Made by a program: the position numbers and the translations under genes | Source: an uncultured Opitutaceae bacterium | GTDB lineage: Bacteria; Verrucomicrobiota; Verrucomicrobiia; Opitutales; Opitutaceae | Assembly (NCBI GenBank): GCA_903929355.1 | Contig: CAIYUN010000053.1 | Location: forward strand, 1-64,000 | DNA: 64,000 nt | Direction: 5' to 3' | In this document: in pieces, positions 38,110-60,750 of the stretch | Position numbering within the stretch: the first letter of the stretch is position 1 | How the letters are laid out: the number at the start of each line of letters is the position of its first letter | The notes under the pieces: generated by a model | What the model saw: only the letters and a program-made list of their open reading frames with translations | Told to the model about the DNA's origin: nothing | The model's database searches: none

Positions 38110-38143
38110 CACTGGCGGAGAGGGGGGGATTCGAACCCCCGAT
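38110..38143. repeat. right attachment site
   Basis: 34 bp identical to 31,040-31,073, overlapping the 3' end of the intact tRNA-Ser. Together the two define the island boundaries. Confidence 0.92.
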
Positions 38144-38202
38144 AGGCTTTCACCTATACGCGCTTTCCAAGCGCGCGCATTCGACCACTCTGCCACCTCT
38201 CC
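38113..38202 (-). tRNA. tRNA-Ser (anticodon GGA)
   Basis: The 90-nt minus-strand gene has the encoded CCA at 38,113-38,115. The acceptor stem GGAGAGG pairs with CCTCTCC. The D-arm (GCAGAGTGGTCGAATGCG), the anticodon stem-loop with CTTGGAAA (anticodon at 38,166-38,168) and the T-arm GGGGGTTCGAATCCCCC are all clear. The long variable arm (about TATAGGTGAAAGCCTATC) is typical of type II serine tRNAs. The island's insertion regenerates the gene's 3' end. Confidence 0.97.
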
Positions 38203-41978: not shown

Positions 41979-44900
41979 CTACGGCGGGTTGGGGACGACC
42001 TCGACGGCGGTCTGGGCGGCGCTGGCACCCCCGGTGGTGATGGCCCGGATGCGGTAGATGTAGCTGCCCGAGACCGTCAGCGTCTCGCTGAAGAAGTTGG
42101 TCGTGGACTGGCCAACGACCACGAAATTGTTCGGCGTCACCGAGGACGCGCGTTCGATCACATAGGCCCCCGCCGGGATGAGGTTGCCGGGGCCGGAGAA
42201 GGGATCCTGGATCGTCGGCAGCGCGCCGGTCCAGGAAAGATCCGACTTCTCGGTGGTGATGTCAAAAACCGCCTGGAAGCTGCCGGGGGCCGCCGGCGCC
42301 GCCGCCAGCGGCCGGATGTTGAGCCGCATAAAGCGACTGCCGGAGGTCGGGGCCGGCACGCTGTCGCGCACCGTCACCCGGGCGAGGTAGTCCTGGGCGA
42401 CGCTGGTGCTGTTGCCGGTCACCGAAAGCACAAACGGGTTGTCCAGCAGGCCGCCGACCCCGGTCAGGCTTTGCGCGCCGGCCGTGCCGAAATACGGCGG
42501 GCTCAACGTGACCAGGGTGCTCCAGGTGACCAGGTCGGGCGAGGACTGGACATCAATGGCGATGTCGTTGGCGCGGACGTTGAAATCAAAGGTCTGGGTC
42601 AGGTATTTGCCCGTCAGCCCGGGCGGGATGGTGAGTGAGGGGTAGCCGTTTTGATTCGTCGTCTGGAACAGCGTCTGGGGCGAACCGGTCAGCGACTGGC
42701 CGGTCGCGTAGGCGGTGATCAGGGAGGTGAACTGGCCGTCGGCCGAGGCCGGGGAGGCGGCCGCATTGTAGCTCGTGCCACTGAGGGCGGCGGACTCGGT
42801 GCTCACATAGGAGCCAAAGGCCGCCTGCCCGAAGTACTGGCCGACGTTCAGCTCGGTCGGAACCGAAGTCAGGGTGAAGGGATTGAAGAAGGTCCAGACA
42901 TTGGCGGTGCTGGATTGCACGATGGCGTTGGTCGGATCCACCACCACCGACCAGTAAAACTGGTAGCCACTGAGGGCGGCGGCATTGGCATACACCGGCC
43001 CGCTGTCTTCCGGCGTGCCCTTGGGGATGATGCCGAGCGCGACCAACGTGTCGCGGATGGTCGGCAGATTGAGGTAGTTGGTGATGGGCGTGGTGCCGCC
43101 ATTGGGGAATTCGCCGCTCACCTGCGGCAGGAAGACGCTGAGGTTCACCGGCGTGTAGGCCTTGATCACCGTGCCATTGTTGGTGGACGGGAAAGTGCCG
43201 GCCGCCACGGCCATGAGACTGACCTGCACCTCAAAGGGCATGGAGGGAGTCACATCCGCCAGGCCGATGTTGCCGAGGTTGAAGGTGAGATAAACGCCAT
43301 CCTGGGGGTGGTAGGGATAGTTGGACGCGAGTCCGGAGAAATTGGTGATCACGAGGCGGGGCGCGCGGGTGATGTTGAAGCCGGGGCCGACCACGGCGGT
43401 GTTGTTGGCCAGGGTGAACTCGGACTGGCTGGAGGAGCCGCCGTACTCCACCAGCAGGTAATAGTTGCCGGCGGGAACGTTGAAGGGCAGGTCAATGTCG
43501 CCCTGAAACACCACCTGGTCGCCCTCGTTCACCGTGTCCAGATTGGCGAAGCTGCCCAGATCAATGTCGTCGGAGTTGCCAAAGACCGTGTCGGTGGAAA
43601 GGTGGATCTCGAGATCGGCCGCATCCCAGGACGGGACCGCCGAGAAGTCTGAGCCGACGTTGGTCACGGTGATGCTGACCGGGAGGACGCCCGTGCCGGC
43701 GGCATCATCGAGCAGGTAGGTGCCGGTGGCGGCGGTCACGTTGGTGACGGCCAGGTCAATGTTCGAGGGCGGCACCGCCCCGTATTGCACCGCGTTGGTG
43801 CCGGAGTTGGGGGTGTTCGTGGCCGGAATGGGCGACAGCACCTGGAGCCCAGCCACAAAACCGGCCGAGGTGGAGGTCTGACTGTTCTGCGAATAGACCC
43901 ACTTGAGCGTGTGGGTGCCCGGTCCCACCAGAAAGGCGACATTCGCCCATGCGGTGTTGCCCGAAATCGTGGCCGGAGACGCGGCGGCGAAGAAAGTGGT
44001 CGTCGGCAGCGAGGCCAGCTGGCCGTCAATGAAGAAGCTAAGCGTGTCCTGGGAGGCCACGCTGGCCGTGCGCCACCAGAAGCTGGCCAGGGCCGGGCCC
44101 GAGATGCCGACCTGCAGGGCGGCCTGCTGGCCAGACTGCAGGGTGGGCGACTGGGCATAGGTGTTGTTGACCGGCGAGGTCGGATCAGAAACCCCGAACC
44201 AGGAGCCGTCCCCACTGGCGATGAAGCTGGGGAGCTGGAGGTTGAGCCGGGCGTAGGCGGTGGTCGTCGCGCTGTTCTGGGTGTAGGTCCAGACAATGAC
44301 GTGGTTACCGGCGGGCACTGCGACGACCGACGGCTGATAAGGCGGAATAAAGCCCGTGAGCGTGCTCACCGGCTGCACGCTGCTGCCATGGGTCCAGACC
44401 GCCGGAGTGGTGCCGGTGGCCACAAACGTGACCCCGGTGGCATTCGAGGCCGCCCCCACGTTGGTGAAACTGTCGCCCGCCGTGTAATTCGTGATCTGGT
44501 ACTGCTCCCCGATCGTCAGGGTGCCCGAGGTCAGCGCCGCCGGGGGCGATCCGTCCACCGTGTACCCAACCGTGTCCGTCCCGCCGCCCACGATCAGCCA
44601 GGGCGCGTTCACGGTCGTGGGACCGGTGACATTGAGGGTGATGGTCGCCGACTGGCCCTGGGCCAGCACCGGGCTCTGGAAGGCCTGGCCGGTCGAGGTG
44701 CGGGTGTCGGTCACCGAGAACCACTGGCCCGCCCCGCCGAAGCTGAACGTGCCGTAGCCGAGCGCGAGACCCGGGGCGTTGGTCTTCTGCAGGAAGACCT
44801 GGCGGGTGCCGGTGGCGACCACGGAGCTGCTCTCGTTGACATTGCGGTCGCGGTTGGCCACGAAAATGAGATAATAACTGCCGCCCACCGTGCCGGCGGG

Positions 44901-47900
44901 GACCGGAATGTTAAAGGCCGGGATGTTGGCGGCCGAAACCCCGCTCAAACCGCCGACATAAGAGGTCGAGTAAAGCAGCGTCTGGTTGCTGGGATTGAGC
45001 GTGGGGGTGGTCGCGAGATAAACCTCAAGCAGGACGGCGGTGCCGGCCGGGACCGCGCCCAGCGAAGTGTCGCCCAGGGTGAACGTGACCCCGGAGAACT
45101 GCGGGCTGGGCAGATTGAGGTTGATGGTGTTGGCCACCGCGATGTTGGAGATCTGCATCGAAGGCCGCTGCAAGGTGACCGGCGTGGCGGCCACGTTGCC
45201 CGCCGGGTTCAGGTCAATGAGACCGGGGGGCAGGACAATCTGGGAGACGAGGTTGAACGGCCCCTGGCCGGCGTCGGGCACGGTGATGCCCGTAAACGTG
45301 ACCGAGCGTCCCGTACCGCCGGGGATCTGCGAGGAAATGGTCTGGGAGCCGAGCAACGGATTGCCGAGGTTCACCGTGGTGTTGGGCGAGAGATAGAGGT
45401 TGACCACGGTGCCGGGCGGGATGGAGAAGCCGCCGAGATTGTTCACGGTCACGCTGGTGCTGGGCAGGATCGTGTTGACCCCCAAGTTTAAATTCGCGAG
45501 GGCGGGAGCGGTCACACTGGCGTTGATCGCACCCACCGCGACCTGCTGGGCGGTGACGCTCACCGGCGCGCCCGCGACCGCCCCGTCGTTGTTGACGACA
45601 AACAGCATCTGATACACCCCGTTGGCGATGTTGGCCGGCAGATTGATGCCATGCGCCGGGCTGGGCAGAAGCACGCTGCCGCCCGCACCGAGGCCGCCCG
45701 TATAGACATACTGGTCGAGCAGAACGTCGGCGGCGGCACTGAAGGTCGTGGTCGTCGACAGATAAACTTGAATGGTGATATTGTGATTGGCGGGCACCGC
45801 GCCCGCGCCCGTGTCGGTCAGGGTGTAGGTCACGTTGCCGAAACTGCCACCGGCACCGATGCTGGTGGTGTTCGGGAAGTTAAAGCCACCCACCGTGAAG
45901 GCCGGGGCGACCACGGTGATGGGGGTGGCGGCGACGTTGTTGGCCGGATTGCCGTCCGTCTGACCGGCGGCGAGCACCACCTGGCTCAGCAGGAAATAGC
46001 CGCCCGGCGCGACATTGGGGATCGAGACGTTGGACCAGTTGAACGCCGCGCTGCCGAGCGCCGCAAGGGACCCGGCCTGCGGGCTGCTCTGCAACAGGAT
46101 GGCCGTGCCGTCCAGCGTGGCGGAGGCCGACAGATAGAGGTTGAGCGTGTAGCCGGCGGAGTAAGGCAGGGTGCCGATGTTCTCCACAAAGGTCGAGACG
46201 GTGCCGACCGTGCCATTGACCCCGACGCTGGTGGTGGCGGTCGTCGGCACGGTCACGGCGAGGTCCACGGCCCCGATGGTAACCGGCACCGCCAGGACAT
46301 TGCTGATGGTGCCGGTCCCGAGCGCACTCTGCGCCACCGCATTGTTGCCGTTGACCACAAAGAACAGGTTGTAGGCGCCACCCGCCGTGCCCGCGGGAAC
46401 CGTGATCGTCCGCGGCGCGGTCGGCAGCGCGACCGTCGCCGGCCCGGCCGCGATCCCGCCGGAATAGGTGTAGCTGTCCAGCAGGATGCTGGTGGTAGCG
46501 TTAAAGGTCGAGGCAGTGGAGAGGAAGGTCTGCACCAACAACGGCGTACCCGCCGGAATCACCCCGGCGTTCAGGTTGTTCAGCTGGTAGGTCACGCCGG
46601 TGAAGCTCCCGCCGGGGTTGGTGGTGGTGCCGCCGGCCAGCACCGGGTTGCTCAGCGTGAGGTCCGAACCCACCACCGTGACGGCCGTCGAAGCCACGTT
46701 GTTGGCCGGATTGCCATCGGTCTGGCCGGCGGCGGGCACGATCTGGCTCAGCAGGAAATAACTGCCCGGCGCGACATTGGGTACCGTCACATTGGTCCAA
46801 GTGAACGACGCGCTCGAGTTCGGCGCCAGCGACCCCGCAGGGGTGGCGGTTTGCAGCAGCGTCGCCGTGCCGTCCAAGGTGGAGGATGCCGACAAATAGA
46901 GGTTCAGCGTATAGCCTGCGGAATAGGTCGACGCGCCCACGTTCTCCGCAAAGGTCGTGACACTGGCCAGTTTCGAGCTGACGCCGAGACTGGTGGCTGA
47001 AGTCGCCGGAGCCGTGATCGCAAGGTCCACCGAGCTGATCGTCACCGGCACCGTCAGCACATTGTTGATCGTGCCCGCCCCCAGGGCGCTCTCCGCCACC
47101 GCATTGTTGGCGTTGACCACAAAGAACAGGTTGTAGGCCCCGCCGGGGGTGCCCGCCGGCACGCCGATCGTCCGCGGGGCGGTCGGCAGCGCAACCGACG
47201 CCGGCCCGGCGGCGATCCCGCCCGAATAGGTGTAGCTGTCCACCAGCGTGCTGGTCGCAAGGTTGAAGGTCGCCGCCGTCGACAGATAGGTCTGCACCAG
47301 CAGCGGCCTGCCCGCCGGGATCACCCCGGCGTTGAGATTGTTCAGCTGGTAACTCACCCCGGTGAAACTTCCGCCCGGGAGCGCGAGGTTGCCCCCGGCC
47401 ATGACCGGGTTGGTGAGGGTGAGGTCGGAGCCCACGATCGTGACCGGCGTGCTGGCGACGTTGTTCGCCGAGTTGCCGTCCACCTGGCCGCCGACGAGCA
47501 CCACCTGGCTCAGCAGGAAGTAACTGCCCGGCGCGACATTTGGGACCGTCACGTTGGTCCAACTGATCGCCGTGCTGAAATTGGGAGCCAGCGACCCGGC
47601 CTGCACACTGCTCTGCAGCAGGGTCGCCGTGCCGTCCAGCGTGGCGGAAGCTGACAGATAGAGGTTCAGCGTGTAGCCACCCGAGTAGGTCACGGACCTG
47701 ACGTTTTGCGCAAAGGTTGAGACACTGGCCAAGGTCGCGTTGACCCCGAGGCTGGTGGTCGCCGTGGCTGGCGCCGACACCGCCAGATCCGGGGCGCTGA
47801 TGTCCACCGGCACCGTCAGCACATTGTTGATCGTGCCCGCCCCGAGGGCGCTCTCCGCCACCGCATTGTTGGCGTTGACCACCAAGAACAGGTTGTAGGC

Positions 47901-50900
47901 CCCGCCAGGGGTGCCCGCCGGCACCGTAATCGTCCGCGGGGCGGTCGGCAGCGTGACCGACGCCGGCCCGGCCGCGATCCCGCCGGAATAGGTGTAGCTG
48001 TCGACCAGCGTGCTCGTCGCGAGGTTGAAGGTCGCCGCCGTGGACAGATACGTCTGCACCAGCAGCGGCGTGCCCGCCGGGATCACCCCGGCGTTCAGGT
48101 TGTTCAACTGGTAGGTCACCCCGGTGAAGCTGCCGCCGGGCCCCGTCGTGTTGCCCCCGGTCAGGACCGGGTTGGTCAGCGTCAAATCCGAACCGACGAT
48201 CGTGACCGGCGTGCTGGCGACGTTGTTGGCCGAGTTGCCGTCCACCTGGCCGCCGGCAAGCACGACCTGGCTCAATAGGAAGTAGCCGCCCGGCGCGACA
48301 TTGGGCACCGTCACATTGGTCCAACTGAACGCCGCGCTGGAGCTGGGGGCCAGCGCCCCGGCCTGCACGCTGCTCTGCAGCAGGGTCGCAGTGCCGTCCA
48401 GAACGGAGGAGGCCGACAGGTACAGATTGAGCGTGTAGCCGCCCGAGTAGGTCGCCGACTTGACGTTTTGGGCGAAGGTCGAGACCGAGGCCAGCGTCGC
48501 ATTGATCCCAAGGCTGGTGGTCGCCGTGGTCGGCGATGTCACCGCGAGGTCCGGGGCGCTGATCGTCACCGGCACCGCCAGCACATTATTGATCGTACCC
48601 GCCCCGAGGGCGCTCTCCGCCACCGCGCTGTTCCCGTTGACCACAAAGAACAGATTGTAGGCCCCGACCGGCGTGCCCGCCGGCACACCGATGGTCCGCG
48701 GCGCGGTCGGCAACGCGACCAAAGCCGGCGCGGCCGCGATTCCGCCCGAATAGGTGTAGCTGTCCACCAACGTGCTCGTCGCGGCGTTGAAGGTCGCCGC
48801 CGTCGACAGGAAGGTCTGCACCAGCAGGCCGGTGCCCGCCGGGATCACCCCGAGGTTCAGGTTGTTCAACTGGTACGTCACCCCGGTAAAGCTGCCGCCG
48901 GGTCCCGTCGTGCTGCCGCCGGCCAGCACCGGGTTGGTCAGCGTCAGGTCCGAAGCCACAATGGTGACCGGCGCACTGGCGACATTGTTCGCCAGGTTGC
49001 CATCCACCTGGCCGGAGGCGAGCACCACCTGGCCCAGCAGGAAGTAGCTGCCCGGCGCGACATTCGGCACCGTCACATTGGTCCAGCTGAACGCCGCGCT
49101 CGAATTGGGGGCCAGCGCCCCAGCCTGCACGCTGCTCTGCTGCAGCAGCGTCGCCGTGCCGTCCAGAACGGAGGAGGTCGACAGGTACAGATTGAGCGTG
49201 TAGCCGCCCGCGTAGGCCACGGACTTCACGTTTGCCGCCAAGCTCGAGACCGAGGCCAGCGTCGCGTTGATGCCGAGGCTGGTGGTCGAAGTGGTCGGCG
49301 CGGACACCGAGAGGTCGGCGGTGCTGATCGTCACCGGCACGGTGAGCACATGGTTGATCGTGCCCGCCCCCAGGGCGCTCTCCGCCACCGCATTGTTGGC
49401 GTTGACCACGAAGAACAGATTGTAGGCCCCACCCGGCGTGCCCACCGGCACGCCGATGGTCCGCGGCGCGGTCGGCAGCGCGACCGACGCCGGCCCGGCC
49501 GCGATCCCGCCCGAGTAGGTGTAGCTGTCCAGCAGCGTGCTCGTCGCGAGGTTGAAAGTCGCCGCCGTCGACAGGTAGGTCTGCACCAACAGGCCGGTGC
49601 CCGCCGGGATCACCCCGAGGTTCAGGTTGTTCAACTGGTACGTCACCCCGGTGAAACTGCCGCCCGGTCCCGTCGTGTTGCCCCCGGTCAGCACCGGGTT
49701 GGTCAGAGTCAGATCCGAACCCACGATCGTGATCGGGGCCGCGGCGACGTTGTTCGCGGAGTTGCCGTCCACCTGGCCGCCAGCCAGCACCACCTGGCTC
49801 AGCAGGAAATAGCTGCCCGGCGCGACATTCGGTACCGTCACATTGGTCCAGCTGAACGCCGCACTTGAGCTCGGTGCGAGCGCCCCGGCCTGCACGCTGC
49901 TCTGCTGCAGCAGCGTCGCCGTGCCGTCCAGCGTGGACGAAGCCGACAGGTACAGATTGAGCGTGTAGCCGCCCGAGTAGGTCACGGACCTGACGTTTTG
50001 CGCAAAGGTCGAGACACTGGCCAGCGTCGCGCTGACCCCGAGGCTGGTGCTCGACGTGGCCGGCGCCGTCACCGCCAGATCCGGTGCGCTGATCGTTACC
50101 GGCACCGTGAGCACATTGTTGATCGTGCCCGCCGCGAGGGCACTCTCCGCCACCGCGCTGTTCCCGTTGACCACGAAGAACAGATTGTAGGCCCCACCCG
50201 GCGTGCCCGCCGGCACCCCGATCGTCCGCGGGGCCGTCGGCAGTGCGACCGAAGCCGGACCGGCGGCGATCCCGCCGGAATAGGTGTAGCTGTCCAGCAG
50301 CGTGCTCGTCGCGAGGTTGAAGGTCGCCGCCGTCGACAGATACGTCTGCACCAGCAGCGGCGTGCCCGCCGGGATCACCCCGGCGTTGAGATTGTTCAGC
50401 TGATAGGTCACCCCGGTGAAGCTGCCGCCGGCTCCCGTCGTGTTGCCCCCGGCCAGGACCGGGTTGGTCAGCGTCAAATCCGAACCGACGATCGTGATCG
50501 GCGTGCTCGCCACGTTGTTCGCGGAGTTGCCATCGGTCTGGCCGGCGGCGAGCACCACCTGGCTCAGGAGGAAGTAGCCACCCGGCGTGACATTGGGCAC
50601 CGTCACATTGGTCCAACTAAACGCCGCACTGGAGCTGGGCGCCAGCGACCCGGCCTGCACACTGCTCTGCTGCAACAGCGTCGCGGTGCCGTCCAGGGTG
50701 GAGGATGCTGACAGATACAGATTGAGCGTGTAACCGCCCGAATAGGTCACCGCCGCCACGTTTTGCGCGAAGCTCGAGACGCTGGCCAGCGAGGCGTTGA
50801 CTCCCAGGGTGCTGGTCGACGTGGTTGGCGCGGTCACCGCCAGGTCCGCGGCCGTGATCGTCACCGGCACCGCCAGCACATTATTGATCGTGCCCGCCCC

Positions 50901-53900: not shown

Positions 53901-55865
53901 GTCCACGGTGCTGATGAACACGGTGGTCGACGCGAAATCAGGCAGGAGGCCGGTCTCAGCCACGGCATTGTCGTCGTTGACAGTGTAAAACAACTGGTAG
54001 GCGCCGCCGACCACCGACAAAGGGACGGTGAAACTCTGCGCCGGCAGAACCACCGAAGAACTGGCCGCAAGGCCGCCGCTATAGGTGAACGAGCCGATTT
54101 TCAGATCGGCGGCGGTGTGGCTGGACTGGGTGCCCAGCCAGACATTGATCACCAACGGCGTGCCCCCGGCGGAAACCGCCGGCAGGACCCCCAGGTTGCC
54201 ATTGCTCAGTGTGGCGGTCACGCCGGTGAAGGTTCCACCGCCGGCGACGGTGGTCGAACCCCCCACCGTCAGATTCTGCAAAGTCAGATCCGGCCCGACC
54301 AACGTGACGGCCGTCGGTGCACCCGCCACCGGGTTGCCGCCCACCGGGGTGACCTGGGAGATCAACTGATAGGCCCCCGGGGGCACCCCGGGAATCGCCA
54401 GATTGGGCGCCGAGAAGGTGACCGTGGTCGAACCCAGGCCGGCCAGCGGCGTGCTCTGGGTGGACGAGGCGAGCAGCAGGGAGCCGGAGTCCAGCGACCC
54501 ATCGCTGGAAAGATAGACACTCACCACATAGCTGGCTGTCTCCGTCGCCGAACCGCTGTTTTGCACAGTGACCGTGACGGGCTGCGCGATGGCATTGACG
54601 CCGAGCGTGACGGACGGCACCGCCGGGGCGCCGGCCGCAAGACTAACCCCGCTGACCAAGGCCAGGCCAAACGCCGGCGTAAAATTGAGGGTGGAGCTGA
54701 TGGCGCCATTGCCGAGCTCGCCAAAAGTGTTGTCGCCGACCGCGTAGACCCCGCCGGCGGCGTTGCGGGCGACGGTAAAATAATTTCCTCCCGTGATGGC
54801 CGCCCATGGCGCCAGCCCGGCCTCCAGGCCCGTGGCCTGGGGCGTCGTGAAGACATTTGCCGTCTGCTGGGACACGGGCAGATCCAACTCGCCGTTGATG
54901 TTCAACCCCCAGCTCCAGAGCGCGCCGGTCGAATCAACCGCCAGGCTGTGATACTGGCCCGCCCCGATGGCAGCCCAAGTCTGGCCGGAGGCAATCTGCG
55001 TCGGGGACATCACACTTTGCCCCGAGACACCATTGCCCACCTGGCCCTCGTTGTTGAAGCCCCAGACCCAAAGCTTCGAGCCCTGCAAGGCGAGCACATG
55101 GCCATAGCCGCCCTTGACCTGAGTCCATCCGACCGCCGTGCCCACCTGGATCGGGGTGGTGTAGGTGAAGGAGAAAGAAGGGGCGCCAAAGGCGATGCCC
55201 TGGCCAATTTCACCGAAGCCATTGTCACCCCAGGCCCACAGGGAGCCATCGGTGGCGATGGCGACCACCGCAAAGGCGGTGGCCGTGACCGCCGTGAAGC
55301 GGCGGCTACCGGTGTTCACGAACACGGGCGTGCTGGACGAGGAAGAGTTGCCCTGGCCAAGCTGACCGGAGGTGCCGCTGCCCCAAGCATAGATGCGCCC
55401 ATGGTCCGTCCCAATATTCACCAAGGCCACGCTGAAGGCCTGGCCGGCCGCCACCGCCTGGACAAGTGAGCCAACGGGCAGGGCAACCTTGACCGGGGAG
55501 GAAGAAGCTGTCGTCCCGCCAATGCCCAGCTGGCCGGAGGCGTTGCTGCCCCAGGCCCACAAGTTGGGAGTGGAGGCGGTGGAGGTGTCAATCGCGAGCG
55601 TGAAATCCTGCCCCATGGCCACCGAACTCCAATGGTGGGAACCGGCCACAGGTGCCGGCTGCGACACCGAAGTCGTGGTCGCCGTGCCCTGGCCAAGCTG
55701 GCCCAGCGCATTGTCACCCCAGGTGCGCAGGACGCCGGTGGAATCAATCGAGCCGGCGAAGTCATACCCCGCCGCGAGCGTATCACCCATCGCCATCGGA
55801 GCGAGCAAGACAACGCCCGCGACGAGGCCGAGGCCACGGAGAATCGTGGTGAGCGTGGTTTTCAT
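41979..55865 (-). CDS. giant secreted protein: RCC1 propeller plus tandem CARDB-like repeats
   Basis: A 4628-residue exported protein. The signal peptide is MKTTLTTILRGLGLVAGVVLLAPMAMG. Residues about 30-400 hold seven RCC1-type repeats (WGDNALGQLGQG, WGSNASGQLGIG and so on), enough to close one seven-bladed propeller. Residues about 400-3710 are about 13 double units, each with a DLAVTAP..LGVNATLASVSTFAQNV..YTLNLYLSASSTLDGTATLLQ..NVAPGSYFLLSQVV half and a DLTLTNPVLTGG..GVTYQLNNLNAGVIPAG..LLVQTYLST..AYNLFFVVNGNNAVAESALG half. Both resemble CARDB/Ig-like adhesin domains. The central ten units are nearly identical at DNA level. The C-terminal 920 residues hold further beta-sandwich domains and a final fibronectin-like domain. 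No PEP-CTERM or cell-wall anchor is visible. It begins 48 bp after the secretin gene on the same strand, so co-transcription and export through that secretin are plausible but unproven. Confidence 0.85.
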   Translation of the reverse strand: MKTTLTTILRGLGLVAGVVLLAPMAMGDTLAAGYDFAGSIDSTGVLRTWGDNALGQLGQGTATTTSVSQPAPVAGSHHWSSVAMGQDFTLAIDTSTASTPNLWAWGSNASGQLGIGGTTASSSPVKVALPVGSLVQAVAAGQAFSVALVNIGTDHGRIYAWGSGTSGQLGQGNSSSSSTPVFVNTGSRRFTAVTATAFAVVAIATDGSLWAWGDNGFGEIGQGIAFGAPSFSFTYTTPIQVGTAVGWTQVKGGYGHVLALQGSKLWVWGFNNEGQVGNGVSGQSVMSPTQIASGQTWAAIGAGQYHSLAVDSTGALWSWGLNINGELDLPVSQQTANVFTTPQATGLEAGLAPWAAITGGNYFTVARNAAGGVYAVGDNTFGELGNGAISSTLNFTPAFGLALVSGVSLAAGAPAVPSVTLGVNAIAQPVTVTVQNSGSATETASYVVSVYLSSDGSLDSGSLLLASSTQSTPLAGLGSTTVTFSAPNLAIPGVPPGAYQLISQVTPVGGNPVAGAPTAVTLVGPDLTLQNLTVGGSTTVAGGGTFTGVTATLSNGNLGVLPAVSAGGTPLVINVWLGTQSSHTAADLKIGSFTYSGGLAASSSVVLPAQSFTVPLSVVGGAYQLFYTVNDDNAVAETGLLPDFASTTVFISTVDLAVTAPTTTTTSLGVNATLANVSTFAQNVKSATYSSGYTLNLYLSASSTLDGTATLLQQSSVQAGALAPNSSAAFSWTNVTVPNVTPGSYFLLSQVVQAAGQTDGNPTNNVAATPVTIVGTDLTLTNPVLTGGTTTAPGGSFTGASYQLNNLNAGVVPAGTGLLVQTYLSTAASFNTSTSTLLDSYTYSGGIAAGPASVALPTAPRTISVPAGTPGGAYNLFFVVNGNNAVAESALGAGVINNVLTVPVTISAADLAVTAPTTATTSLGVNAKVASVSTFAQNVVALTYSGGYTLNLYLSASSTLDGTATLLQQSSVQAGSLAPSSSAAFSWTNVTVPNVAPGSYFLLSQVVLAGGLVDGNAANNVASTPVTIVGTDLTLTNPVLTGGTTTAPGGSFTGATYQLNNLNAGVIPAGTGLLVQTYLSTAATFNLATSTLVDSYTYTGGIAAGPASVALPTAPRTISVPAGTPGGAYNLFFVVNGNNAVAESALGVGVINNVLAVPVTISAPDLAVTAPTTSTTSLGVNATLATISTFAQNVTALTYSGGYTLNLYLSASSTLDGTATLLQQSSVQAGSLAPSSSAAFSWTNVTVPNVAPGSYFLLSQVVLAGGLVDGSAANNVGSTPVTIVGSDLTLTNPVLTGGTTTGSGGSFTGVTYQLNNLNLGVIPAGTGLLVQTFLSTAATFNTATSTLLDSYTYSGGIAAAPASVALPTAPRTINVPVGTPGGAYNLFFVVNGNNAVAESALGTGTISNVLAVPVTISTADLAVTSPTTATTSLGINATLSTVSTFVANLQSATYSGGYTLNLYLSASSTLDGTATLLKTSVPAGSLAPSSSTAFSWTNVTVPNVAPGSYFLLSQVVLATGQVDANLGNNVAASPVTVVGSDLTLTNPVLAGGTTVVSGASFTGVTYRLNNLNLGVIPAGTALLVQTYLSTAATFNAATSTLLDSYTYSGGIGAVPATVVLPTAPRSITVPAGTAGGSYNLFFVVNSNNAVAESALGAGTINNVLAVPVTITAADLAVTAPTTSTSTLGVNASLASVSSFAQNVAAVTYSGGYTLNLYLSASSTLDGTATLLQQSSVQAGSLAPSSSAAFSWTNVTVPNVTPGGYFLLSQVVLAAGQTDGNSANNVASTPITIVGSDLTLTNPVLAGGNTTGAGGSFTGVTYQLNNLNAGVIPAGTPLLVQTYLSTAATFNLATSTLLDSYTYSGGIAAGPASVALPTAPRTIGVPAGTPGGAYNLFFVVNGNSAVAESALAAGTINNVLTVPVTISAPDLAVTAPATSSTSLGVSATLASVSTFAQNVRSVTYSGGYTLNLYLSASSTLDGTATLLQQSSVQAGALAPSSSAAFSWTNVTVPNVAPGSYFLLSQVVLAGGQVDGNSANNVAAAPITIVGSDLTLTNPVLTGGNTTGPGGSFTGVTYQLNNLNLGVIPAGTGLLVQTYLSTAATFNLATSTLLDSYTYSGGIAAGPASVALPTAPRTIGVPVGTPGGAYNLFFVVNANNAVAESALGAGTINHVLTVPVTISTADLSVSAPTTSTTSLGINATLASVSSLAANVKSVAYAGGYTLNLYLSTSSVLDGTATLLQQSSVQAGALAPNSSAAFSWTNVTVPNVAPGSYFLLGQVVLASGQVDGNLANNVASAPVTIVASDLTLTNPVLAGGSTTGPGGSFTGVTYQLNNLNLGVIPAGTGLLVQTFLSTAATFNAATSTLVDSYTYSGGIAAAPALVALPTAPRTIGVPAGTPVGAYNLFFVVNGNSAVAESALGAGTINNVLAVPVTISAPDLAVTSPTTATTSLGINATLASVSTFAQNVKSATYSGGYTLNLYLSASSVLDGTATLLQSSVQAGALAPSSSAAFSWTNVTVPNVAPGGYFLLSQVVLAGGQVDGNSANNVASTPVTIVGSDLTLTNPVLTGGNTTGPGGSFTGVTYQLNNLNAGVIPAGTPLLVQTYLSTAATFNLATSTLVDSYTYSGGIAAGPASVTLPTAPRTITVPAGTPGGAYNLFLVVNANNAVAESALGAGTINNVLTVPVDISAPDLAVSAPATATTSLGVNATLASVSTFAQNVRSVTYSGGYTLNLYLSASATLDGTATLLQSSVQAGSLAPNFSTAISWTNVTVPNVAPGSYFLLSQVVLVGGQVDGNSANNVASTPVTIVGSDLTLTNPVMAGGNLALPGGSFTGVSYQLNNLNAGVIPAGRPLLVQTYLSTAATFNLATSTLVDSYTYSGGIAAGPASVALPTAPRTIGVPAGTPGGAYNLFFVVNANNAVAESALGAGTINNVLTVPVTISSVDLAITAPATSATSLGVSSKLASVTTFAENVGASTYSAGYTLNLYLSASSTLDGTATLLQTATPAGSLAPNSSASFTWTNVTVPNVAPGSYFLLSQIVPAAGQTDGNPANNVASTAVTVVGSDLTLSNPVLAGGTTTNPGGSFTGVTYQLNNLNAGVIPAGTPLLVQTFLSTASTFNATTSILLDSYTYSGGIAAGPATVALPTAPRTITVPAGTAGGAYNLFFVVNGNNAVAQSALGTGTISNVLAVPVTIGAVDLAVTVPTTATTSVGVNGTVGTVSTFVENIGTLPYSAGYTLNLYLSASATLDGTAILLQSSPQAGSLAALGSAAFNWSNVSIPNVAPGGYFLLSQVVLAAGQTDGNPANNVAATPITVVAPAFTVGGFNFPNTTSIGAGGSFGNVTYTLTDTGAGAVPANHNITIQVYLSTTTTFSAAADVLLDQYVYTGGLGAGGSVLLPSPAHGINLPANIANGVYQMLFVVNNDGAVAGAPVSVTAQQVAVGAINASVTAPALANLNLGVNTILPSTSVTVNNLGGFSIPPGTVVNLYLSPNTTVNLGNPLLGSQTISSQIPGGTGRSVTFTGITVPDAGQGPFNLVSQIVLPPGLIDLNPAGNVAATPVTLQRPSMQISNIAVANTINLNLPSPQFSGVTFTLGDTSLGAVPAGTAVLLEVYLATTPTLNPSNQTLLYSTSYVGGLSGVSAANIPAFNIPVPAGTVGGSYYLIFVANRDRNVNESSSVVATGTRQVFLQKTNAPGLALGYGTFSFGGAGQWFSVTDTRTSTGQAFQSPVLAQGQSATITLNVTGPTTVNAPWLIVGGGTDTVGYTVDGSPPAALTSGTLTIGEQYQITNYTAGDSFTNVGAASNATGVTFVATGTTPAVWTHGSSVQPVSTLTGFIPPYQPSVVAVPAGNHVIVWTYTQNSATTTAYARLNLQLPSFIASGDGSWFGVSDPTSPVNNTYAQSPTLQSGQQAALQVGISGPALASFWWRTASVASQDTLSFFIDGQLASLPTTTFFAAASPATISGNTAWANVAFLVGPGTHTLKWVYSQNSQTSTSAGFVAGLQVLSPIPATNTPNSGTNAVQYGAVPPSNIDLAVTNVTAATGTYLLDDAAGTGVLPVSITVTNVGSDFSAVPSWDAADLEIHLSTDTVFGNSDDIDLGSFANLDTVNEGDQVVFQGDIDLPFNVPAGNYYLLVEYGGSSSQSEFTLANNTAVVGPGFNITRAPRLVITNFSGLASNYPYHPQDGVYLTFNLGNIGLADVTPSMPFEVQVSLMAVAAGTFPSTNNGTVIKAYTPVNLSVFLPQVSGEFPNGGTTPITNYLNLPTIRDTLVALGIIPKGTPEDSGPVYANAAALSGYQFYWSVVVDPTNAIVQSSTANVWTFFNPFTLTSVPTELNVGQYFGQAAFGSYVSTESAALSGTSYNAAASPASADGQFTSLITAYATGQSLTGSPQTLFQTTNQNGYPSLTIPPGLTGKYLTQTFDFNVRANDIAIDVQSSPDLVTWSTLVTLSPPYFGTAGAQSLTGVGGLLDNPFVLSVTGNSTSVAQDYLARVTVRDSVPAPTSGSRFMRLNIRPLAAAPAAPGSFQAVFDITTEKSDLSWTGALPTIQDPFSGPGNLIPAGAYVIERASSVTPNNFVVVGQSTTNFFSETLTVSGSYIYRIRAITTGGASAAQTAVEVVPNPP
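46252..53890 (-). repeat. tandem array of ten 762/765-bp coding units
   Basis: Taking the codons for DLAVT as marker, unit boundaries fall at 53890, 53125, 52360, 51595, 50833, 50068, 49303, 48538, 47776, 47014 and 46252. Every spacing is 765 or 762 bp, so units differ by at most one codon. Divergent units lie on both sides (next spacing 741 bp). Confidence 0.92.
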
Positions 55866-55913
55866 TGGGACCGGAGGATACGAAGCACAGTCAGAAACGC
55901 AATCAATTAGCGA

Positions 55914-57674
55914 TTAGTGCGAATGAACCGCGCCGGAGGAATTTTTGGAGGTGGTGGGAGCCGTCGCGGCCACCGGCGGAACCACGGGCTTGGGCAGCGG
56001 CACGAAGGGATCGGTGCCGTCGCGGTAGCCGGGCAGATCCTCGCGCTTGATCTCCATCGCGCGCACGTCGTCGGAGTTGAAAACCTGCTCGATCGGCGCG
56101 CCCTCGGCGCTGAGCGTTTTCGCGGTGATAAAGATCAGCAAGTCGGTGGTCAGGGCCGTCGTCCCCTCCGACTTGAACAAATTGCCCAGCACCGGGATGT
56201 CGCCGAGGAGCGGGACCTTGGTCGTGCTTTTGTTGCTGTTTTTGCTCATCAACCCGCCAATGCCCATCGTGTAGCCGTCCTTGAGGGAGACATTGGTGAC
56301 GGCCTTCCGGGTGCCGATGATGGGAATGTCCGTCCCGCTGAAAGAAATCGACCCGTTCTTCTGGCTGACCTCGGGAGCGAGGGTGAGATGAATGAAGCCG
56401 CGCGCGTTGACCTGCGGCGTGACCTTGAGAATGACGCCGATGGGCTTAAAGTCAAAACCGCTGACCACATAGGCGCCGGTCTGCTGGTTGTAGGTGTATT
56501 GGGGGATCGGATCCTCCTCGCCCACGTTGATGATCGCCTCCTGGTTGTTCAGGGTCACGACGGTCGGGTTGGACACGATCTTGGTGCTGTTGAGCGACTG
56601 GAGTGCGCTCAGGACCACGTTGAACTGGGCGGCCGAGAAGACCGCGGTGGTCACCCGCGACACCGCCAGGTTGTCGGTGATCGAGGCGAGGTTGCCCAAG
56701 ACCTGCGACACGGTGCCGGTGGTGAGGGTGCCGCTGGTGGTGGTCGTGGTGGAGGTGTTGCCGCTCGTCAGCGTGTTCGTCGGGGGCCCGCTGCCGGCGC
56801 TGAAGGCCGAGGACGAGTTGCTGGTGTTGGTCGTGTTGTTGCCGCTGGTGGGACTGGTGTTGGTGCCGTTGGTGCCCGTGTTGGTGGTGCCGTTGCTGCC
56901 GGTGGTCCCGCTCGTCCGGCTGTAGTTGATGCCGGCCGGGCCGGCCGAGAGTCCGTATCCGCTCAGTGAAGACCAGTTGACCCCGAGGTTCCTGACGTTG
57001 TTGCCGTCCACCTCGATGAACTTGGACTCGATCATCACCTGGTCCGTGGCCTTGTCGAGCTGGTCGATGAGGCCGCCGATCTTCTTCATCTCCGAGGTGT
57101 GGGCGGTGACAACCAGTGAGTTGGTGCGGGCGTCGATGATCGGCTTGGGGTCCTTGGCATCCAGCAACTGGCTGACCGTCGGCAGGAGCACCTTCGCCTC
57201 GGCGTAGTTGAGCACAAAGATCTGCGTGGTCAGCGGCTCCTGCGCGAGCGTGTCCTGGCTCACGATCTTGATGATGTTGCCGTCCTCCACAAACGTGTAG
57301 CCGACCGGGGAGAGCACGACCTGGAAAATCTGCCGCCAGGTGACATCGCTCAGCTTGATGGACGCCTTGCCCTGAAGGGTGTCGGGAATGACAATGTTGA
57401 GCTCGAAGAGATCGGCGACGTTGCGGAGGATGGTGCGGATGTCCTCGTCGGCCCAGTCCACCTTGAGGGTGTCCTTGTCCTTGGTGGCGGGCGTGGCCGG
57501 GGCGGCGTCGGGCGCGATGACCACATCGGGCTTCGGCGCGGCGGGCGCGGGGACCGGAGTGACGGCGGCCGCCGGGGCGGGCGCGGTGGACGCCGGCGTG
57601 ACGGCGGTTGGGGCCGGCTGGGCGAGCAGCGGGCCGGCGGCGAGGAGAAGGAAGGGCAGAAGGCGCGTGCTCAT
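55914..57674 (-). CDS. pilQ: secretin, PilQ/GspD-like
   Basis: A 586-residue outer-membrane secretin. A signal peptide (MSTRLLPFLLLAAGPLLA) and an Ala/Pro linker to about residue 65 lead to a secretin/TonB short N-terminal domain (VDWADEDIRTILRNVADLFELNIVIPDTLQGKASIKLSDVTWRQIFQVVL). An N1-type domain follows (LNYAEAKVLLPTVSQLL..DARTNSLVVTAHTSEMKKIGGLIDQLDKATDQVMIESKFIEV), then the secretin core (STKIVSNPTVVTLNNQEAIINVGEEDPIPQYTY, LLGDIPVLGNLFKS, DLLIFITAKTL). A Thr/Ser/Asn/Gly-rich insert of about 70 residues (251-320) interrupts the start of the core. It is last of five overlapping pilM-N-O-P-Q-like genes. Whether it serves type IV pili or type II-like secretion cannot be decided here. Confidence 0.88.
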   Translation of the reverse strand: MSTRLLPFLLLAAGPLLAQPAPTAVTPASTAPAPAAAVTPVPAPAAPKPDVVIAPDAAPATPATKDKDTLKVDWADEDIRTILRNVADLFELNIVIPDTLQGKASIKLSDVTWRQIFQVVLSPVGYTFVEDGNIIKIVSQDTLAQEPLTTQIFVLNYAEAKVLLPTVSQLLDAKDPKPIIDARTNSLVVTAHTSEMKKIGGLIDQLDKATDQVMIESKFIEVDGNNVRNLGVNWSSLSGYGLSAGPAGINYSRTSGTTGSNGTTNTGTNGTNTSPTSGNNTTNTSNSSSAFSAGSGPPTNTLTSGNTSTTTTTSGTLTTGTVSQVLGNLASITDNLAVSRVTTAVFSAAQFNVVLSALQSLNSTKIVSNPTVVTLNNQEAIINVGEEDPIPQYTYNQQTGAYVVSGFDFKPIGVILKVTPQVNARGFIHLTLAPEVSQKNGSISFSGTDIPIIGTRKAVTNVSLKDGYTMGIGGLMSKNSNKSTTKVPLLGDIPVLGNLFKSEGTTALTTDLLIFITAKTLSAEGAPIEQVFNSDDVRAMEIKREDLPGYRDGTDPFVPLPKPVVPPVAATAPTTSKNSSGAVHSH

Positions 57675-58198
57675 GGCTTGCTTGGATTTGAGGGTCCGGC
57701 TTTGATGGTCCGGGTGATTTCCTCGGCCCGAAGGCGGAGGGTGAAAGTGCCGTCCTGGATGGCGGTGATCGTCAGCTCATAGGGCTTGTCCTTGTAGATG
57801 ATCGGGAGGGTGTCCCCCACCTTGAGCCTTTTCGAGCCAAAGAGCAGCAGGGTCTGGCCCCCGAACACGGCGGTGCCGCTGGGCGTGATCAGTGGCGCAA
57901 TGGCCTCGAGGTACTGCCGGTCCAGCGGCTCGGGCGGCGGCGGCGGGGCCGGCGGCGGCGCCGCCGGGTCGGGCTGGTCGGGGGCGGCCTGGTCCGGCGC
58001 CATGGTCGCCGGCAGGGCGAAGGGATCCCGGAGCACCGCCCCCAGCGGCGGCGCGACCTTGGGCTGGAGCAGCTGTTGGGCGAGGCTCACAAACGCATCC
58101 CGTTGCTTGATCGGCTCGAGATCCGACGTCGCGGCCCGCGCCACGCCTCCGGCCAGGAGGGCCAGCAGCAGCAGGAGGAGGCTGGGGGCGCGTTTCAT
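57671..58198 (-). CDS. PilP-like assembly protein
   Basis: A 175-residue exported protein. The signal peptide is MKRAPSLLLLLLALLAGGVARA. A proline-rich linker (about residues 75-92) leads to a small C-terminal beta domain (ITPSGTAVFGGQTLLLFGSKRLKVGDTLPIIYKDKPYELTITAIQDGTFTLRLRAEEITRTI). The domain resembles PilP/GspC homology-region folds that dock the inner-membrane complex to the secretin. Sequence similarity is weak; the call rests on size, topology and position between pilO- and pilQ-like genes, joined to both by ATGA overlaps. Confidence 0.7.
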   Translation of the reverse strand: MKRAPSLLLLLLALLAGGVARAATSDLEPIKQRDAFVSLAQQLLQPKVAPPLGAVLRDPFALPATMAPDQAAPDQPDPAAPPPAPPPPPEPLDRQYLEAIAPLITPSGTAVFGGQTLLLFGSKRLKVGDTLPIIYKDKPYELTITAIQDGTFTLRLRAEEITRTIKAGPSNPSKP

Positions 58199-58779
58199 GG
58201 GGCGGGGAGGGCGAGAAGCTCGAGGTTGAGGACGAGGGTGAGCTTGGTCGAGGTCCTATCCTCCTTGCTGGCGGGCGCGATCACCGCGCTGAGCTCGCGG
58301 CTGAAATGCGCCCCCTGCTCAATGTGGCGCAACAGGTCTACCAGCTGCCGGAAGTCCCCCTGAACCGTGATCGCGTAGGCATCCGGCAGATAGACCGTCT
58401 TGGGCGCCCCCTTGGCCAGGGGCTTGACCACCCCGCCATGATGCAGCCCACCCTGATCCTTCACGCCGGTCTCGGATTCAATCCGGTAAAAATACTGGAG
58501 ATTGAGCGAGAGCTCGCGCGGACGCACGGCCCGGACCTGCGCCTCCTTGTTGGCGGCCTGGAGCGCCAGCAGCTGCGCCGGGAGCTTGCTGGCGTACTCG
58601 ACATTCTTCCGCAGGCGCTCGTCCTCGTCCTTTTTGTCAGTGTGGGCCTGCGTTTGCTGGTCGAGCGCGTCCGAGCGCAGATACAGCACCGCCCCCAGCG
58701 CGAGGCTGATGCCCACACAGACCACCAGCACCGGCTGCTTCTTGATAAAACTGACGACGTGTCGGGTCTCCAGGCTCAT
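58195..58779 (-). CDS. PilO-like inner-membrane assembly protein
   Basis: A 194-residue bitopic protein. A short cytoplasmic N-terminus is followed by a transmembrane helix at about 16-34 (PVLVVCVGISLALGAVLYL), a coiled-coil stretch (about 40-80) and a periplasmic ferredoxin-like domain containing YAITVQGDFRQLVDLLRHIEQGAHFSRELSAVI..KLTLVLNLELLAL, the typical PilO/GspM closing strand pattern. ATGA overlaps join it to genes on both sides. Forms heterodimers with PilN in known systems. Confidence 0.75.
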   Translation of the reverse strand: MSLETRHVVSFIKKQPVLVVCVGISLALGAVLYLRSDALDQQTQAHTDKKDEDERLRKNVEYASKLPAQLLALQAANKEAQVRAVRPRELSLNLQYFYRIESETGVKDQGGLHHGGVVKPLAKGAPKTVYLPDAYAITVQGDFRQLVDLLRHIEQGAHFSRELSAVIAPASKEDRTSTKLTLVLNLELLALPAP

Positions 58780-59459
58780 TTCGGGGCGGCCTCCTTGTCT
58801 TTTTCCTTGTCCTTGTCCCCCTTGGGTGCGGGCGGCTTGAAGTTCATCACGATCTCAAAGGTGTACCGGCCGGTGGCCACCTCCGGGTTCTCGTTGTTGG
58901 CCTCCACCGTTTCGAACAGCGGCCCGTAGGCCTGGTCGTCACGCAACTGCTGCACATAGGCGTCCACCAGCCCGGCCCCCTCGTCGGGGGTGGCGAGCAC
59001 GGCGCCGTTCAGGATGACCCCGGTGGCGCGGGCATCGAAATGCGTCAGGGCGATCTTCGGCGGCAGGGTGGCGCTGAGATGGAGCAGGTAATCGGAGACC
59101 ACCAGTTTGCCGCCCCCCAGGCCGCCGGCCTGAAACTGGTCGAGCTCGCGCAGCGTTTTCTCCTCCGCCTGAAATTTCTTGAACTGCGCGACGGCGGCGG
59201 TGCTGGCGGCCTTCGCCTTCTCAATGCTGGCCGCGTAGCCGGCGGTGTCGTTCGCCAGGTTGCGCAGCTCATACTCCCCGTACACCGTGTAGAGCAGCAG
59301 GCCGAGCGTGATGGTGACGGCCGCGCCGTTGATGAAAAACGACGTGCGGACCGTCTTCGTGTCGGGCAGCCGCTCGAAGTTCCGAAAATTCGGATGCCAG
59401 GCCGGCGCGAGCGCCGCGGCGGCGGCCTTGGCCTTGGACCTTTTAGGGAGCAGTGGCAT
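58776..59459 (-). CDS. PilN-like inner-membrane assembly protein
   Basis: A 227-residue bitopic protein. The cytoplasmic N-terminus contains NFRNFERLPDTKTVRTSFF, a candidate PilM-binding peptide analogous to the INLLP motif region of PilN but without that exact motif. A transmembrane helix is at about 43-60 (FINGAAVTITLGLLLYTV). A coiled coil (about 65-110) and a periplasmic domain (LVVSDYLLHLSATLPPKIALTHFDARATGVILNGAVLATPDEGAGLVDAYVQQL) follow, then a Lys/Asp/Glu-rich tail. The start overlaps the pilM-like gene by 17 bases. Confidence 0.72.
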   Translation of the reverse strand: MPLLPKRSKAKAAAAALAPAWHPNFRNFERLPDTKTVRTSFFINGAAVTITLGLLLYTVYGEYELRNLANDTAGYAASIEKAKAASTAAVAQFKKFQAEEKTLRELDQFQAGGLGGGKLVVSDYLLHLSATLPPKIALTHFDARATGVILNGAVLATPDEGAGLVDAYVQQLRDDQAYGPLFETVEANNENPEVATGRYTFEIVMNFKPPAPKGDKDKEKDKEAAPK

Positions 59460-60477
59460 GGCGGGGATACTGGGCCATCAGCCCGAACAAGCCCAGGCGG
59501 CGCGCGTCCTGCGCGGCGGCGGGCACGGTTTCGGCCAGCGTGATCTGGCGCGATTGCAGCCAGGCCGGCAGGTCGGGTTTCAGCACGGGCACCCCCAGCT
59601 GGCCGGCGACCGCCTCCTCGAGCCACAACAGCTTCGGGGACAGCGCCGGGCACATCACCTGCCCGATCGACTGGCCCGTCTGCACCTCGTAAAAACCAAT
59701 CGAGGATTGGAGCTCCTTCAGGAGTTTCCGGACCAGCAGGGGTGCCAGCCCGGTGAAATCAAACGCATTGGAGTAAAACAGCTTTCGCGCCGACTCCTCG
59801 TCCTTGAGGTTCAGCTCTTTCTGCACCACCGGGATCATGCCCTCGAGCCCCTGCGGGATCACCCGTGTAGCCTCCAGCCCCGCCCCCGAGACAATGAACG
59901 ATTGGGTGGAGTCGCCCGCGATCTCCAGCACCAGCGTCGGCGTTTTGTTTTTGGCAAAGTTCAGGTAATCCGCCAGCCCGCCGATCACGGCCAGCGTGAC
60001 CAGCTCCAGGCGGTCGGGATAAAGGCCCGACTTCAGCAGCCGGTCCTGCAGGGTGATGACGTCCTCCGACGGCAGGCCGCAGATGATCACGTCTTTCTGT
60101 GTCGCCGACCCAGCGTCATATTCCGTCCCGTCCGTGGGGTGCAGCAACATGAGGATGTGCTGGTCGGGTTCGATCCGCAGTTGTTGCGCGGCAACCTCGT
60201 TCAGGTAACCCGGCTCCTTCACCCGCTTCAGTTCCAGCGTGACGCGACGCACCACCCGCCGCGGCGGGCAGACGCCGCAGACCGCCTGCAGATAGCCCCC
60301 GGTTTTTTTCGGCTGGAGCACCTTGAGCAACTCCACCAGCGCGGCCTCGTCGTCGATGGCGCACTCCTGAATCTCCTCGATCACCAACGGCGGCACCGCC
60401 GCCGACGTACGCGCCAGCAGCAGCGTGTGTTCGGTGCAGTCGAGGAAGAAACTCTTGGATTTCGGCGCAAGAAACAT
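59443..60477 (-). CDS. pilM: PilM-like actin-fold protein
   Basis: A 344-residue cytoplasmic protein from the ATG at 60477 (MFLAPKSKSFFLDCTEHTLLLARTS). The FtsA/PilM-type actin fold is indicated by FLDCTEHTLLLAR (phosphate-1 region), KDVIICGLPSEDVITLQDRLLKSGLYPDRLELVTLAVIGGL, TPTLVLEIAGDSTQSFIVSGAGLEATRVIPQG (phosphate-2) and KLFYSNAFDFTGLAPLLVRKLLKELQSSIGFYEVQTG. PilM recruits PilN at the inner membrane. It is the first gene of the operon, which continues through pilN, pilO, pilP and pilQ. Confidence 0.82.
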   Translation of the reverse strand: MFLAPKSKSFFLDCTEHTLLLARTSAAVPPLVIEEIQECAIDDEAALVELLKVLQPKKTGGYLQAVCGVCPPRRVVRRVTLELKRVKEPGYLNEVAAQQLRIEPDQHILMLLHPTDGTEYDAGSATQKDVIICGLPSEDVITLQDRLLKSGLYPDRLELVTLAVIGGLADYLNFAKNKTPTLVLEIAGDSTQSFIVSGAGLEATRVIPQGLEGMIPVVQKELNLKDEESARKLFYSNAFDFTGLAPLLVRKLLKELQSSIGFYEVQTGQSIGQVMCPALSPKLLWLEEAVAGQLGVPVLKPDLPAWLQSRQITLAETVPAAAQDARRLGLFGLMAQYPRHATAP

Positions 60478-60648: not shown

Positions 60649-60750
60649 TCACTTCTGCCACGTACGCTTTTTGTGGCGGTTCGCCTTGAGGCGCTTCCGC
60701 CGCTTGTGCTTGTTCATTTGCAGACGGCGCTTCTTTTTGAGGTTTCCCAT
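60649..60750 (-). CDS. AURKAIP1/COX24 (mS38)-like mini-protein
   Basis: A 33-residue open frame beginning [19 protein letters not shown] and ending KKRTWQK. Seventeen of 33 residues are Lys or Arg. The pattern [24 protein letters not shown] matches the AURKAIP1/COX24 domain, found at the C-terminus of the mitochondrial small-subunit protein mS38 and as free mini-proteins in Verrucomicrobiota and Bacteroidota. It likely binds the small ribosomal subunit. It is easily missed because of its length. It lies between the pilM-like operon and the helicase gene on the same strand. Confidence 0.85.

Follow-up and report, generated by a model that had tools for sequence, protein, structure and literature searches.

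A slot for giant proteins of variable make after pilMNOPQ in an Opitutaceae genome and its relatives

In the genome of an uncultured Opitutaceae bacterium, the secretin gene of a pilMNOPQ set has directly behind it a gene whose giant product is probably exported, and many relatives carry giants of the same or other makes in this slot. The linkage between giant and secretin operon is well supported at the sequence level because the gap between the genes is clean, slot and spacing are common to many loci, and terminator-like hairpins follow pilQ in many of the loci that have no giant. By the same comparisons, the slot is common and the giant's content is swapped between lineages. We prefer the reading, with confidence evenly balanced for and against, that the giant gene is the last of the pilMNOPQ operon and that its product is displayed or released via the PilQ-based machine as an adhesive or matrix fiber.

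The pilMNOPQ genes and the giant frame

The window, i.e., the whole stretch of 64,000 nucleotides analyzed, carries the following features, given in the direction of transcription.

60649..60750 (-), 33-aa basic ORF upstream of pilM, a flank marker of the locus
59443..60477 (-), pilM-like gene, 344 aa; TIGR01175 pilM 6.3e-09, 35.3 bits, below the cut-off of 133
58776..59459 (-), pilN-like gene, 227 aa; 17 bp overlap with pilM
58195..58779 (-), pilO-like gene, 194 aa; 4 bp overlap with pilN
57671..58198 (-), pilP-like gene, 175 aa; 4 bp overlap with pilO; assigned by position and a DPF motif
55914..57674 (-), pilQ-type secretin gene, 586 aa; 4 bp overlap with pilP; PF00263 1e-45
55866..55913 (-), gap of 48 bp between the pilQ stop and the giant's ATG, without a terminator-like or promoter-like site
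41979..55865 (-), gene for the giant, probably exported protein, 4628 aa, ATG start; 0 Cys, 57 Lys+Arg, 153 Asp+Glu
54666..55778 (-), RCC1-type propeller of the giant, residues about 30-400; PF25390 9e-72, PF00415 1.8e-46
44886..54620 (-), CARDB array of the giant, about 13 units of 255 aa with two domains each, residues 416-3660
41979..44885 (-), genus-conserved C-terminal part of the giant, residues 3661-4628, with an fn3-like end

The minus-strand order pilM-N-O-P-Q-giant of the preliminary description, made from the letters of this DNA, holds with all its coordinates, as do its overlaps of 4 to 17 bases and its 48 bp gap (measured as 17, 4, 4, and 4 bp and as 48 bp). The secretin domain of the pilQ-type gene is certain. 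Among family models, TIGR02515 PilQ fits this secretin best at 242.3 bits (cut-off, 284.35), with GspD close at 231.5 bits and likewise below its cut-off; the Amuc_1098 model, at 114.6 bits against a cut-off of 750, ranks seventh of eight. Family models recognize PilM, PilN, and PilO weakly or not at all; the gene order is the expected one. Against the PDB, the profile of pilM-like relatives had PilM of 3jc8 as its sole match up to E 0.1 (E 0.016), and PilN and PilO of the same entry were the top matches of the pilN-like (A4; E 0.019) and pilO-like (A3; E 0.021) profiles. These matches to 3jc8, the type IVa pilus machine model from Myxococcus, are weak but concordant (E 0.016-0.021). The pilP-like protein matched no family model, and the PDB matches of its profile were unrelated; its DPF motif is typical of PilP. 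The 33-aa ORF resembles AURKAIP1/COX24-type small proteins. Searched by tblastn in two overlapping sets of loci, it was matched in 90 of 119, with identities of 91-100% among the 40 matches listed.

A terminator and a separate promoter between pilQ and the giant gene, named in the preliminary description as a sign against coupling, were sought in the 48 bp gap, and neither was found: the terminator scan, a simple pattern with perfect stems, detected no terminator-like hairpin there, and the sigma-70 scan detected no promoter-like site, with the proviso that Verrucomicrobial promoters need not fit sigma-70.

The giant opens with an RCC1-like propeller, recognized by PF00415 at 156.9 bits (cut-off, 21.7) over six stretches. 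RCC1 is thus certain, as the preliminary description had it; of its seven repeats, six were scored and seven are plausible. All 6 RCC1 matches at E 0.001 in this genome fall within the giant. Elsewhere in the same genome, the frame C72:27099-29000 (L088) has a start that is RCC1-like by eye and no PF00415 score. Also judged by eye, the giant's N-terminus is signal-peptide-like and a C-terminal anchor is absent. Its C-terminus gave a Pfam PilX match (E 0.024, 15.5 bits) below the cut-off of 27, and the predicted structure of the C-terminal part (mean pLDDT, 44.8) was discarded.

The middle of the giant consists of repeats to which Pfam CARDB is only partly sensitive: it had no match in the window giant or its first unit and matched 9 of 29 aligned units from the window giant and its relatives. 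When the whole genome was searched with the CARDB family, no match came up, not even to the window repeats, which the Pfam model therefore overlooks. The predicted structure of one unit (pLDDT, 92.1) has two domains. Foldseek searches with this two-domain unit gave TM-scores below 0.4, and the CARDB match was resolved by VIA-align, in which residues 1-122 match solved CARDB 2kl6 (Z 11.8, rmsd 2.4, 104 aligned) and residues 117-255 match solved CARDB 3idu (Z 11.8, rmsd 3.1, 110 aligned). Going by this predicted model, the window repeats have the CARDB fold, and the Pfam matches in 9/29 units together with the Z scores of 11.8 uphold the earlier label "CARDB-like." The next structural matches (Z up to 10.1, rmsd 20.4) were to RbmA, which scaffolds the biofilm matrix of Vibrio cholerae. 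It has a tandem beta-sandwich pair like the window unit (Z 10.1); the high rmsd implies a different angle between the two domains, and RbmA is a small two-domain protein, unlike the giant.

Neighboring and next-neighboring 255-residue units share 78-91% identity but use different codons, suggesting that the copying is not very recent. Three or four units per giant were matched in four genus mates (L042, L044, L046, and L054) and in G028 (L043), compared with about 13 in the window, where the copy number of the 765-bp repeat is open to misassembly in a draft genome of 91 contigs. The window also has short tandem repeats whose period is 7 or a multiple of it, among them CCGCATT x 11.3 at positions 13-91, and a tRNA-Ser (gga) gene at 38113-38202 (-).

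The slot after pilQ in related genomes

We surveyed two overlapping sets of loci, whose counts are not summed. In the PilM-profile set, the best 80 of 190 candidate loci, 65 were assessable; a giant occupies the slot after pilQ in 37 of these and is absent from it in 28. The second sign against coupling named in the preliminary description, that the giant never adjoins the secretin in related genomes, was therefore not borne out either; at the level of sequence, both outcomes favor the linkage. The 15 dropped loci comprise 6 without a PilQ frame (L094, L112, L140, L143, L154, and L167), 5 in which PilQ runs off the contig (L105, L115, L128, L130, and L152), and 4 with under 300 bp after pilQ (L097, L144, L161, and L168). 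Counted among the 37 giants are 8 that are cut under 1000 aa at a contig end (L092, L106, L121, L135, L137, L145, L146, and L148) and 2 with broken frames that were recognized by tblastn (L108 and L113). Most of these loci come from metagenome bins, for which absence elsewhere in the bin is weak evidence; the stretch after pilQ is contiguous in the counted loci.

A secretin match of some kind is present in 55 of 57 genomes, the window's own included. The 39 loci around the best PilQ matches form the PilQ-match set, in which a giant lies directly downstream of pilQ in 20; the 19 loci without one include L061, with only 33 bp after pilQ, and L076 and L079, which are poor PilQ matches. The pilQ-giant order recurs across many independent assemblies, two of which, G007 and G024, are single-contig genomes, and three groups of family rank within the order (f1, f9, and f21) have giants in the slot. 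Complete giant frames range from 1141 aa (L123) to 4628 aa. A null distribution from stop-to-stop frames of ≥1000 aa upstream of pilM (53 in 460,536 bases of 49 loci, 3 of them reaching 1300 aa) is unusable, apparently owing to a shared gene of about 1050-1100 aa there.

The median distance from pilQ to the likely start of the giant is 46 bp, and 30 of the 33 loci measured (36 tried) fall within 20-90 bp. A terminator-like hairpin with a T-run at most 110 bp after pilQ was found in 20 of 28 PilM-profile loci without a giant versus 0 of 37 with one; the corresponding figures for the overlapping PilQ-match set are 8 of 19 versus 0 of 20, and random windows gave 67 of 4200. Hairpins of this kind are rare after the giants themselves (2/11 PilM-profile and 4/18 PilQ-match loci; none in the window), so the operon's 3' end is not fixed by the terminator pattern. 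Where a polyprenyl-synthetase gene was found in loci without a giant, it mostly lies 0.1-1.7 kb after pilQ and in the same orientation; nine giant loci also yielded this gene, at 3.6-8.3 kb after pilQ. In four distant PilQ-match loci without a giant (L064, L065, L069, and L071), it is 2.8-3.0 kb off and on the other strand.

Exchanged content, gain, and loss

Sequence comparison sorted the 37 PilM-profile giants into 5 of RCC1 type, 29 of Ig type, and 2 unclassified, with L108 (broken frame) left out. Pfam detected tandem Big_7 in the seven Ig-type giants scanned (L047, L048, L049, L050, L053, L055, and L057), RCC1 in the giants of L042, L104, and L066, and BNR-like/DUF6242 matches in the L070 giant. 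In G044, pilQ is followed by three giant frames in tandem (2194, about 2616, and 2929 aa; C33:49860-73300; L066, L175), all of RCC1 type or related to it. The C-terminal part of the window giant has a counterpart in the slot after pilQ in G028 and in four of the five genus mates, and in the fifth genus mate, G004, it is split over other contigs; G044 gave a weaker match (E 2e-34), and G006, G017, G038, and G039 gave matches at E 1e-8 to 1e-3. The linkage of giant and secretin that was first proposed stands, and no single protein is fixed in the slot, which holds RCC1/CARDB, Ig-type, and other giants.

A quick tree of 84 PilM rows requires 7 changes in giant presence, versus 27.3 for shuffled labels, and at least 3 changes are forced by starred branches; gain and loss of the slot giant cannot be told apart on this tree. 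All seven members of the window's clade have RCC1 giants. In its sister clade of six, one has a giant (L104) and five lack one. L099, a close sister of L104, has no giant in the slot and a terminator-like hairpin after pilQ, and a search of its genome with L104's giant gave no match. Among eight genomes searched with that giant, G058, G059, G060, and G063 had no match, and in G061, G062, and G064, which have no slot giant, the matches fall almost entirely on the RCC1 part, suggesting that they are other RCC1 proteins.

Because 28 of 65 loci, L099 among them, have no slot giant, the pilus operon does not need it, and the giant looks accessory, outside the core of the pilus machine. Being dispensable in evolution and variable in design, it is more readily seen as an accessory effector at the cell surface than as part of the machine.

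Possible export routes and function

The preliminary description noted no pilin, pilB/T, or pilC gene nearby, and this holds for the window, whereas other contigs do carry genes of these kinds. A search of the rest of the genome recovered PilT, PilB/GspE-type ATPases, T2SSF matches, and 20 prepilin N-termini. Contig C91 carries a PilB-type ATPase, PilT (443.8 bits; cut-off, 319.1), a second PilB/GspE-type ATPase, and T2SSF platform matches in broken frames; the two ATPases score just below their cut-offs. T2SSF matches occur on C91, C9, and C53, and the scanned piece of the broken C91 platform frame matched nothing. The prepilin N-termini (N_methyl matches) are spread over other contigs, with none on C53. 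These motors, platform, and prepilins may serve the window operon. PilT cannot discriminate as a co-occurrence test, since 56 of 57 genomes match, 50 of them over the cut-off.

In the reading that we prefer, the giant would be made together with the PilQ gate from one operon, would enter the periplasm by its putative Sec signal peptide, and would reach the cell surface or the surroundings by way of the PilQ-based pilus machine, with the motor genes (PilB/PilT/PilC type) and prepilins of that machine presumably being those encoded elsewhere in the genome. Once outside, it could act as a long adhesive or matrix fiber, with a head, here the RCC1 propeller, on a CARDB or Ig stalk, and Opitutales would keep the slot while head and stalk are exchanged between lineages. 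Operon and giant would then amount to a dedicated surface or release system. A more specific version, in which the end of pilMNOPQ is a cargo slot whose co-expressed, swapped giant is exported through PilQ and replaces PilY1 as an adhesive tip or secreted matrix fiber, is possible, though we would not bet on it.

Known systems offer partial parallels. TcpF is described as a secreted protein that is encoded in a type IV pilus operon and depends on that pilus for secretion; CofJ of enterotoxigenic Escherichia coli (ETEC) is similar to it. Like TcpF, the window giant would be encoded in a pilus operon and is probably exported; unlike TcpF, it is a giant repeat protein beside a T4aP-like PilMNOPQ, not a T4b system. 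PilY1/PilC is presented as a large modular non-pilin exoprotein at the T4aP tip, with different adhesion modules (PMC10191384). The window giant would likewise be a large modular non-pilin exoprotein, possibly working with a T4aP machine; it is far larger than PilY1, and its gene follows pilMNOPQ. SiiE of Salmonella is reported to be a giant adhesin with its own secretion machine (PMC6272769). It uses type I secretion, unlike the route proposed for the window giant. To our knowledge, SiiE has no Sec signal.

Two family assignments of the giant were rejected. It had no match up to E 0.1 to PF05567, the domain expected of PilY1; elsewhere, PilY1 was matched in 0 of 57 genomes, but 0 of 14 control genomes matched either, which leaves that absence without weight. 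A modular pilin was discarded since the giant has no prepilin N-terminus and none of the 20 N_methyl matches is on C53; none of 57 giant frames (from overlapping sets, some with over-extended starts) carried a prepilin motif within its first 60 residues. On these searches, the giant would belong to neither the PilY1 nor the pilin family, though by analogy it may work like PilY1 or TcpF.

The strongest competitor, which we consider possible but doubtful, treats the giant as an exported protein like any other, on the pilMNOPQ transcript merely because of its expression needs and leaving the cell by a GspD-type secretin, an Amuc_1098-like system, or outer membrane vesicles. The genome does have two secretins besides the window's that could serve such export. 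One belongs to a GspD-E-F set further along the window's contig, at about 95-100 kb, and the other to a second pilus-like cluster (C57:11749-18405; L084:1750-8406), in which the secretin is best matched by Amuc_1098 and the PilM-like protein by Amuc_1101, both below cut-off. Amuc_1098-Amuc_1102 of Akkermansia is presented as a pilus-like cluster with a verrucomicrobial secretin and a PilM-like protein (PMC5332112); its counterpart here is likely the C57 cluster, and the window secretin is further off. The 28 of 65 relatives with an empty slot would also suit a passenger, but the use of the slot in f1, f9, and f21 for giants of different make and the terminator pattern after pilQ speak against it. 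In another genome, G003, a 1538-aa open frame (C110:1545-3065) has three matches to PilQ residues 53-141, i.e., repeated secretin N-domains.

It is improbable that the giant is a structural part of the envelope, staying in the periplasm or at the outer membrane to stabilize or gate the secretin in a role akin to that of TsaP or PilW. The position of its gene right after pilQ is laid out as for a machine gene, but complete frames that vary between 1141 aa (L123) and 4628 aa in length, and between RCC1/CARDB and Ig in type, would be odd for a machine part, and many relatives have no giant. Chance adjacency or an assembly artifact in one metagenome bin, which the draft state and the doubtful repeat copy number might invite, is extremely unlikely given the recurrence of the order in separate and single-contig assemblies.

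In the titles, abstracts, and passages of the open-access papers searched, we found no description of a slot giant after pilMNOPQ. Our observations give the secretin of a verrucomicrobial type IV pilus a specific partner that recurs, and they suggest that in many members of the family a giant adhesin or secreted fiber, exchangeable between lineages, works with the pilus machine. Loci with, without, and with swapped giants form a natural series for testing the export of giant adhesins by pilus machines and how its specificity changes.
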